IMG/VR virus record: IMGVR_UViG_3300044984_000367
Location: 1-32,519 of that record
Origin: a virus
Length of the DNA: 32,519 nt
Direction: 5' to 3' (one strand)
Positions within the stretch are counted from its first letter, which is position 1; the number at the start of each line of letters is the position of its first letter. The notes under the pieces were generated by a model. The model was not told where the DNA came from and made no database searches. It was given only the letters and a program-made list of their open reading frames with translations. The translations under genes and the position numbers were made by a program. Shown here piece by piece: positions 5,003 through 16,042 of the stretch.

Positions 5003-5313
5003 GCGCTAAAGATGCCAATTGCCAACACTTCCACGCCTGCGCCTGTCGTGATTCTCCACGATCCAAACTTAGAAATAGAGCCTACCTCAATGTTGTAAGT
5101 GTTAATGCCTGTGCCGCACAACGCTGGCAAAACGGTATGTGAAACGCCTGCACCGTCAAACAAAACAACGTTGCCCGTGGCAGATGTTGACACGGTACAA
5201 ATTAAACGGGCTAGATAGTCACCAACTGCGCCTGTGCCGCCTAGGACTTGTGCGGTTTGGCCTGCTGCAACGTGTTCGTATTGATACTCATAAGGATGTT
5301 GTACGCCGCTCAT
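4999..5313 (-). CDS. Hypothetical small beta-rich protein after terminase (104 aa)
   Basis: The start overlaps the TerL stop (ATGA) and its own stop overlaps the next start the same way. The sequence is rich in Gly, Thr, Val and Ala and looks all-beta (for example QVLGGTGAVGDYLARLICTV and GSWRITTGAGVEVLAIG). Small beta proteins of this sort in phage head operons often decorate capsids or form fibre knobs. I know no defined family for it, and function is inferred from position and composition only. Confidence 0.7.
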   Translation of the reverse strand: MSGVQHPYEYQYEHVAAGQTAQVLGGTGAVGDYLARLICTVSTSATGNVVLFDGAGVSHTVLPALCGTGINTYNIEVGSISKFGSWRITTGAGVEVLAIGIFSA

Positions 5314-9581: not shown

Positions 9582-9676
9582 AATTCACCCCATCTAGGCA
9601 AAGTCATCACGGAAGTGCAGCAACAGGACGGTGATGAATCGTCTTTTCCCCCGCTAAAGGTAGTTGCTACGGTAAT

Positions 9677-15412: not shown

Positions 15413-15484
15413 ACTGATTGAGCCTTTAGCAAGCATGAAACAAACAATGATAAGGGTCGTGTTTCACTAGGTTAGCTTTAGACC

Positions 15485-15513
15485 TTGACACATCGGAAAG
15501 ACGGTGGCAGAAT
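15485..15513 (+). promoter_or_regulatory. Promoter candidate for the small RNA
   Basis: A perfect TTGACA (15485-15490) is followed 17 bases later by CAGAAT (15508-15513), a 4/6 match to TATAAT. The start point would be near 15520, just before the first arm of the structured RNA and not before any open frame. Confidence 0.6.
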
Positions 15514-15519
15514 TGAATT

Positions 15520-15641
15520 GTTGTCTTGGTCGACGATGTAAGCCGTTTTAGTGAGTATTTTGATTCTCTTGCGCCTTGAAGCCGATAGAGAATGTCCCGA
15601 AAGGGTCGACCAACAAAATACTCTCTAAAACGGCTTTTTTG
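15520..15641 (+). ncRNA. Candidate structured small RNA with crossing helices and intrinsic terminator
   Basis: Between a TTGACA promoter and a T-rich end lies a ~120-base stretch without a gene but with strong pairing. Helix B: 15540-15562 pairs with 15614-15636 (22 of 23 positions), followed by TTTTGTTTTT, a textbook terminator. Helix A: TTGGTCGAC (15526-15534) pairs perfectly with GTCGACCAA (15605-15613). A lies before B and its partner just before B', so A and B cross (pseudoknot order). Inside are ATTCTCT/AGAGAAT (15563-15569 with 15587-15593) and CCC-GAAA-GGG (15596-15605). Full A and B together seem sterically strained, so the RNA may switch between folds. It may also serve as the terminator for the upstream Cro-like gene. 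Confidence 0.65.
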
Positions 15642-16013
15642 TTTTTAAAGATAACTGTCAGGGCGCATCAGCTAATAGAGTGACCACTCGTACCCAGAAT
15701 AGGTCAGTTATACAGTTGTTATATAGCTTTATCCCGTGTGACCCGCACGCCCCAGTAGAGAAATCGAACAGGATATAGACAGAGTTTGGAAACAAACTAA
15801 AACCATTTACTCTAGGTATTGATCTTCTACAGCTGCAAGGACTGCTACTGTTTTAGGGAATCTAGGGGTGGGGTGAGATGCCTGCCATAAACCTAACAAG
15901 GTACAGGTCTGTCGTAAAGGATTTATCCTCAACTACTACGGTGGGTGGGTATAAGGGTAGGGTATCTATATTTAAAATAAACAGAGTAAGTGTTATCACC
16001 TAGTTAATACTTC
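15642..16013. other. Non-coding stretch with structure, possible origin or regulatory region
   Basis: About 370 bases with no open frame of useful length on either strand. It contains a hairpin AGTTTG-GAAA-CAAACT (15783-15798), a short hairpin GAGT-GACC-ACTC (15678-15689), G-runs at 15865-15876, and DnaA-box-like sequences TTATACAGT (15708-15716), TTATCCCGT (15729-15737) and TTATCCTCA (15923-15931, one mismatch to TTATCCACA). A G-quadruplex motif closes it. The mix would suit a replication origin, but a transcript leader or further RNA is equally possible. Confidence 0.4.
15943..15962 (+). other. Canonical G-quadruplex motif
   Basis: Reads GGG-T-GGG-TATAA-GGG-TA-GGG on the plus strand: four runs of three G with loops of 1, 5 and 2 bases. 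It is about 50 bases upstream of the rightward promoter at 16.03 kb, in a gene-free stretch of otherwise moderate GC content. Confidence 0.7.
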
Positions 16014-16042
16014 TTGAATGTTGTGTTTAGATAGCTTAATGT
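16014..16042 (+). promoter_or_regulatory. Rightward promoter of the five-gene operon, with shared operator
   Basis: TTGAAT (16014-16019) and TAATGT (16037-16042) are 17 bases apart. The shared motif TTTAGATAGCTTAAT (16026-16040) fills the spacer and -10, in the same register as at the two leftward promoters. An AAGGA ribosome site (16052-16056) and the ATG at 16062 follow. Confidence 0.75.

Follow-up and report, generated by a model that had tools for sequence, protein, structure and literature searches.

A phage RNA element whose 5' hairpin loop pairs inside a predicted terminator

A real RNA element lies at positions 15485 to 15646 of the 32,519-nucleotide viral sequence analysed here (IMG/VR record IMGVR_UViG_3300044984_000367; the whole stretch is referred to below as the window), with a promoter, two crossing helices A and B, and a T-run where an earlier note on this DNA had placed them. 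In the RNA, the loop of a 5' hairpin base-pairs with a strand within the terminator loop, an arrangement that goes beyond two merely competing helices. This structure, on the + strand, is well supported by covariation among related phages. Its function we infer from the same comparisons: at about even chances, the element is a promoter-proximal, pseudoknot-tied terminator that would gate early phage transcription, the terminated product being a stable RNA of ~120 nt. Many related phages keep the knot while changing its letters, which marks it as a real RNA element; it probably controls whether the region beyond it is switched on. Whichever reading holds, it represents an RNA family absent from Rfam.

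Architecture of the element

The element lies between two phage genes, in an interval that the earlier note had called gene-free, and no ORF of at least 60 aa is present within 15413-16017. Its parts, several of which overlap, are the following.

15485-15513, + strand: promoter TTGACA-17-CAGAAT with an extended -10; the spacer carries the inverted repeat CATCG-GAAAGA-CGGTG
15520-15537, + strand: P1, the 5' hairpin GUUGUC-UUGGUC-GACGAU, at the predicted +1 (strands 15520-15525 and 15532-15537, from the MFE fold)
15526-15534, + strand: A, 5' strand of the pseudoknot helix, TTGGTCGAC, whose first six bases are the P1 loop (UUGGUC)
15540-15562, + strand: B, 5' strand of the 23-bp terminator stem, from pairing and homologues
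15563-15604, + strand: inner hairpins (a 7-bp stem and CCC-GAAA-GGG, the last G of the latter being 15605)
15605-15613, + strand: A', 3' strand of the pseudoknot helix, GTCGACCAA, directly 5' of B'
15614-15636, + strand: B', 3' strand of the terminator stem, from pairing and homologues
15637-15646, + strand: continuation of the T-run, the putative intrinsic-terminator tail; the run starts inside B' at 15635

The pairings reported in the earlier note are all present. Helix A is an exact 9-bp match between TTGGTCGAC and GTCGACCAA, helix B forms 22 of its 23 possible pairs before the T-run, and both the inner 7-bp stem (15563-15569/15587-15593) and the CCC-GAAA-GGG hairpin (15596-15605) are found. 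The promoter, described as perfect, deserves that word for its -35 (TTGACA, 15485-15490) and has the 17-nt spacer, but its -10 (CAGAAT, 15508-15513) matches the consensus at only four of six positions; the TG of an extended -10 is present. Overlooked in that note was hairpin P1, which holds the 5' part of A in its six-base loop. A GC-containing stem is followed immediately by a U-run, as in intrinsic terminators, and this is kept in the homologues; a terminator is thus predicted, although a simple terminator scan passed over it, the loop being too long for that scan.

Folding gave an MFE of -49.2 kcal/mol (z -7.6), and none of 200 shuffles folded equally well. By the architecture scan, the order A-B-A'-B' followed by a T-run is unique in the window, and no further copies of the element were found elsewhere in the same record. 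A weaker form (B of at least 14 pairs, A of at least 6) arose 55 times in total across 200 dinucleotide shuffles, with a longest chance B of 22 pairs (the A match at that B was not recorded). Since chance alone yields a B of this length, helix B by itself is not beyond chance, and it is the covariation among homologues that provides the decisive evidence for the element.

Covariation among related phages

The protein encoded just upstream of the element, a 71-aa Cro-like protein (P22_Cro), was used as bait and gave 80 IMG/VR loci, in most of which the element is present in the DNA downstream of the Cro-like gene. The architecture scan returned 53 distinct segments, comprising 49 copies of the element and four chance matches, and 40 viral homologues were brought into one alignment (A1). 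Standard pairs fill 95.7% of the cells of P1, A and B in these 40 sequences, against 36-45% when the partners are slid by one to three columns; P1 taken separately is paired in 96.7% of its cells. Both sides have changed in 20 of the 35 pairs, and the 165 doubly changed cells compare with 44.6 in shuffled alignments, as many being reached in 0 of 500 shuffles. The earlier note had proposed that compensatory changes in both helices would support the crossing order A-B-A'-B', and they are seen in A/A' and B/B' alike.

The P1 loop exists in more than ten versions, every one of them matched by its own A': GTGGAA/TTCCAC, GTGAGA/TCTCAC, GTTGCA/TGCAAC, GTGAAG/CTTCAC, GTGATG/CATCAC, GTGACA/TGTCAC, GTAGAA/TTCTAC, TTGGTC/GACCAA, TTGGCA/TGCCAA, TTGGCG/CGCCAA and CTGGAA/TTCCAG, the GTGATG rows standing one column out of register in this comparison. 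In an unbiased scan for stems of at least four pairs, A/A' ranked first (7 bp, 69 doubly changed cells), followed by three blocks of B; no other stem had more than one doubly changed pair, and neither a rival nor an antiterminator helix covaried. The inner hairpins are exchanged freely or missing among homologues, the T-run is retained in nearly all of them, and the invariant columns fall almost entirely in the helix strands and the T-run.

A covariance model scored the window at 109 bits on the + strand versus 41 on the - strand, and detected the element in 48 of the 52 loci retrieved through the sequence downstream of it alone (region D, below). An RNA from the minus strand was rejected, as that strand scored lower in every full-length locus matched on both. 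Six pattern-scan matches in bacterial genomes came from unrelated taxa and reached at best 17 bits with covariance model R1, which does not support an occurrence there.

The promoter moves with the RNA. The distance from the end of its -10 to P1 stays near 6 nt in almost every homologous context, including those with unrelated upstream DNA (L005, L007, L053, L098), and from this constant spacing P1 would begin at or near +1. We take this as strong, if indirect, evidence that the promoter makes the element RNA. Most promoters have, around GGAAAGAC in the spacer, an inverted repeat whose arms vary; the repeat is missing in L005, L007, L012, L013, L053, L057 and L098, all of which nevertheless retain the RNA.

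The DNA upstream of the promoter has features of its own. After the stop codon of the cro-like gene, in window 15422-15507, small hairpins co-vary between loci (AGGTT-AGCTTT-AGACCT, AGCCT-AGCTTT-AGGGCT and AGTTC-AGCTTT-AGAACT). Some phages carry a structured insert, GTTGGTATGTGAAAGC...ACATACCAAC, between the cro-like gene and the element (L102 ~5043-5170, L097 4284-4400, L132 7876-8000); it includes a GCTCA-NN-GGTAG stretch resembling a tRNA D arm, and ARAGORN finds no tRNA in it.

As the earlier note had suspected, the layout corresponds to no described family: no Rfam 15 model matches the region at its gathering threshold, and at E<=10 only miRNA, snoRNA and other models appear, far below cut-off. 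Literature searches, beyond whose reach many subscription papers lie, found no description of this RNA. Other candidates were discarded as well: no tRNA or tmRNA was found, a conserved catalytic core of the kind expected of a ribozyme is absent, and, unlike a type III toxin-antitoxin RNA, in which pseudoknots repeat in tandem ahead of a ToxN-like gene, the element is single-copy in the record, and the tested neighbours match no toxin of the ToxN kind. We therefore file it as an undescribed RNA family, under leader/terminator control in phages.

Genes and RNAs beyond the T-run

A divergent form of the element (variant 2, alignment A2), known from GenBank MW202520.1 (L004) and seven IMG/VR loci, retains P1, A/A', B and the T-run terminator. 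Its A/A' pairs are TGGCAG/CTGCCA, TTGGCGG/CCGCCAA and TGGTCGGG/CCCGACCA, and A' sits between two inner hairpins. Only 9-21 nt separate the T-run from a start codon in variant 2 and in L034 and L144, which belong to the window's type (11 loci, three gene types). The downstream gene of L004 encodes a DUF1376 protein with primosomal and replication-initiation O-like PHROGs, and L173 and L176 have near-identical protein starts, which places a replication-initiation gene behind the element in three loci. As 9-21 nt is too short for another promoter, these genes must, to judge from their positions, rely on read-through of the terminator or else on an undetected start inside the element. The earlier note is borne out as regards a distinct RNA element with a promoter, a terminator and crossing helices of its own, but its term small RNA is too narrow where a gene follows so closely, since there the element also stands as a leader and terminator.

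What follows the element in the window's type is a second structured RNA together with small genes, and we infer that read-through may reach them. Region D (window 15645-16000) begins ~15 nt after the T-run and comprises ~350 nt that lack an ORF, look RNA-like and have no Rfam match. Thirteen pairs are doubly substituted among 37 sequences of D, and a GAAA-capped hairpin covaries within it (AGTTTG-GAAA-CAAACT versus AGTAGA-GAAA-TCTACT). Other loci have different D types after the element, and L012 has no obvious RNA directly downstream.

Several further RNAs were observed in these phages. In L088 (5514-5639) the region after the element matches Betaproteobacteria-1 RNA (RF02932) at 80 bits, with further occurrences in L168 and L169, so that this orphan sRNA family is placed in phage contigs beside the element. 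A third, sequence-unrelated RNA occupies the slot of the element in L141, L153, L165 and L097 and, by eye, has a hairpin, apparent crossing helices and a terminator. Within the window, an int-alpA RNA (RF02996, 38.7 bits) is found at 9604-9670 on the - strand, just upstream of a minus-strand HNH endonuclease gene.

Function and comparison with known systems

Mechanistically, a terminator that gates early transcription would work as follows. The element's own promoter would give a separate transcript starting with hairpin P1, whose loop would pair with a strand inside the terminator loop to form helix A. Transcription would end ~120 nt from the start, at the long stem B and its U-run. Termination, with release of a compact ~120-nt RNA, would be the default; when overridden, transcription would enter the replication-initiation gene in variant 2, or the second structured RNA and the small genes in the window's type. 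On the nascent RNA, A/A' would pair first and B would then zip from its loop end. A/A' is indeed the predicted fold once A' has been made but B' has not, and a transient A/A' intermediate before B' synthesis is plausible.

P1, A and most of B could fit together in a hairpin-loop pseudoknot alongside the terminator stem. In 38 of the 40 sequences only 1-2 nt connect P1 to B, and A' joins B' directly (0 nt); to judge from A-form geometry, the short linker between P1 and B would make the pseudoknot tight, so that B may fray in part or a mechanical coupling may arise. The knot may determine in what order the terminator folds and how stable it is, serve as a shape recognised by a factor, or both. 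Given that A and B share no bases and that no alternative partner covaries, an internal antiterminator switch is not supported. With no conserved antiterminator pairing, any switch would have to be external, and the likeliest trigger of read-through would be a protein, from phage or host, that targets either RNA polymerase or the knot.

Other explanations fit part of this evidence. Long T-runs and strong stems would also suit a plain RNA gene, and it is possible, if distinctly short of probable, that the element is an autonomous stable small RNA with an RNA or protein of the host as its target in trans, the knot conferring nuclease resistance, the terminator being a mere 3' end and the coding genes behind it being expressed by leak-through. 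The promoter, P1 at the predicted 5' end, a terminator at the 3' end, a length of about 100-130 nt and the presence of the cassette in differing gene contexts (L007, L012, L013) are what such an RNA would show; on the other hand, no unpaired seed is conserved, and the loop sequence changes fast and is consumed in A/A'. Nor do the loop sequences have a covarying partner elsewhere in the phage flanks, and the closeness of the variant 2 genes to the T-run counts against this explanation as well. An antisense role in trans within the phage was rejected, as loop 7-mers match their own flanks at 0.116 per kb and those of others at 0.122, with no excess. The conserved repeat around GGAAAGAC, together with a layout shared with lambda Q and AlpA (PMC6606751, PMC9371919), would also agree with a Q- or AlpA-like protein that binds the -35/-10 inverted repeat, loads on RNA polymerase and passes a terminator that the knot only strengthens. 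We think this unlikely: the RNA is kept where the repeat is absent, the repeat could be an operator instead, or belong to the upstream hairpins, inspection by eye showed no conserved pause site resembling a -10, and the conservation of A would be left unexplained.

The two mutually exclusive folds held plausible in the earlier note, with A/A' taken as the antiterminated state and B/B' as the terminated one, appear less likely still. The predicted nascent fold is A/A', and the short linkers make full A together with a full 23-bp B sterically tight; however, A and B do not compete for bases, P1, A and most of B are topologically possible together, neither B nor B' has a covarying alternative partner and, given P1, A becomes a six- to seven-base loop interaction compatible with P1 and the greater part of B. 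Least probable of all, and very unlikely, is that the element forms the 5' domain of a larger RNA running into region D with the T-run internal. The joint occurrence of the two in the loci fetched by D, and the RNA-like character of D itself, point that way, but a coding gene separates them in L034 and its relatives, a long T-run follows the GC-containing stem base, and the element is constant across loci with different D types.

In the classical picture, terminators gate phage early genes and are overridden by proteins (N, Q, AlpA) or by simple RNAs (put). The terminator described here belongs to a conserved pseudoknot that has its own promoter, and in some relatives it directly precedes replication genes; if the knot tunes termination, the element would be a compact RNA gate. 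A further extension, which we regard as doubtful, is a class of RNA-only gates: the nascent 5' hairpin would kiss the loop of its own terminator and so decide whether transcription stops or reads on into phage replication genes. The kissing sequences would drift from phage to phage like a lock with its matching key, and the same knot would have been reached by several unrelated sequences.

In its order of parts (P1 loop, helix, loop', helix') the element resembles the pistol self-cleaving ribozyme, where a 5' hairpin's loop of ~six bases pairs into the internal loop of the helix that follows. The likeness is of topology only: the element lacks a conserved unpaired catalytic core, has no Rfam match at E<=10, and possesses a 23-bp terminator stem in place of the short P2 of pistol. 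RF02932, which immediately follows the element in L088 and L084, is a separate RNA, matched neither by the element nor by the downstream region of the window. We know of no conserved pseudoknotted RNAs in the leaders of lambda Q and AlpA, whereas in the present element the RNA structure is the conserved part. Otherwise the lambda late promoter with Q and P. aeruginosa PalpB-tB with AlpA show the same succession of promoter, short leader, intrinsic terminator and genes, the DNA sites lying in the promoter (for AlpA between -10 and -35) with the intrinsic terminator downstream (PMC6606751, PMC9371919), and most of the present loci have a conserved element between -35 and -10. This inverted repeat, conserved in most though not all promoter spacers, makes loading of the Q or AlpA type at the spacer a concrete option for the override. 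By analogy, the closest phage RNA in role would be put of HK022, which has two stem-loops in ~70 nt; putL and putR are also structured early-region RNAs near early promoters that influence termination (PMC9378689), but their architecture differs, as they have neither a terminator of their own nor a loop-terminator pseudoknot, while the present element ends in a terminator.
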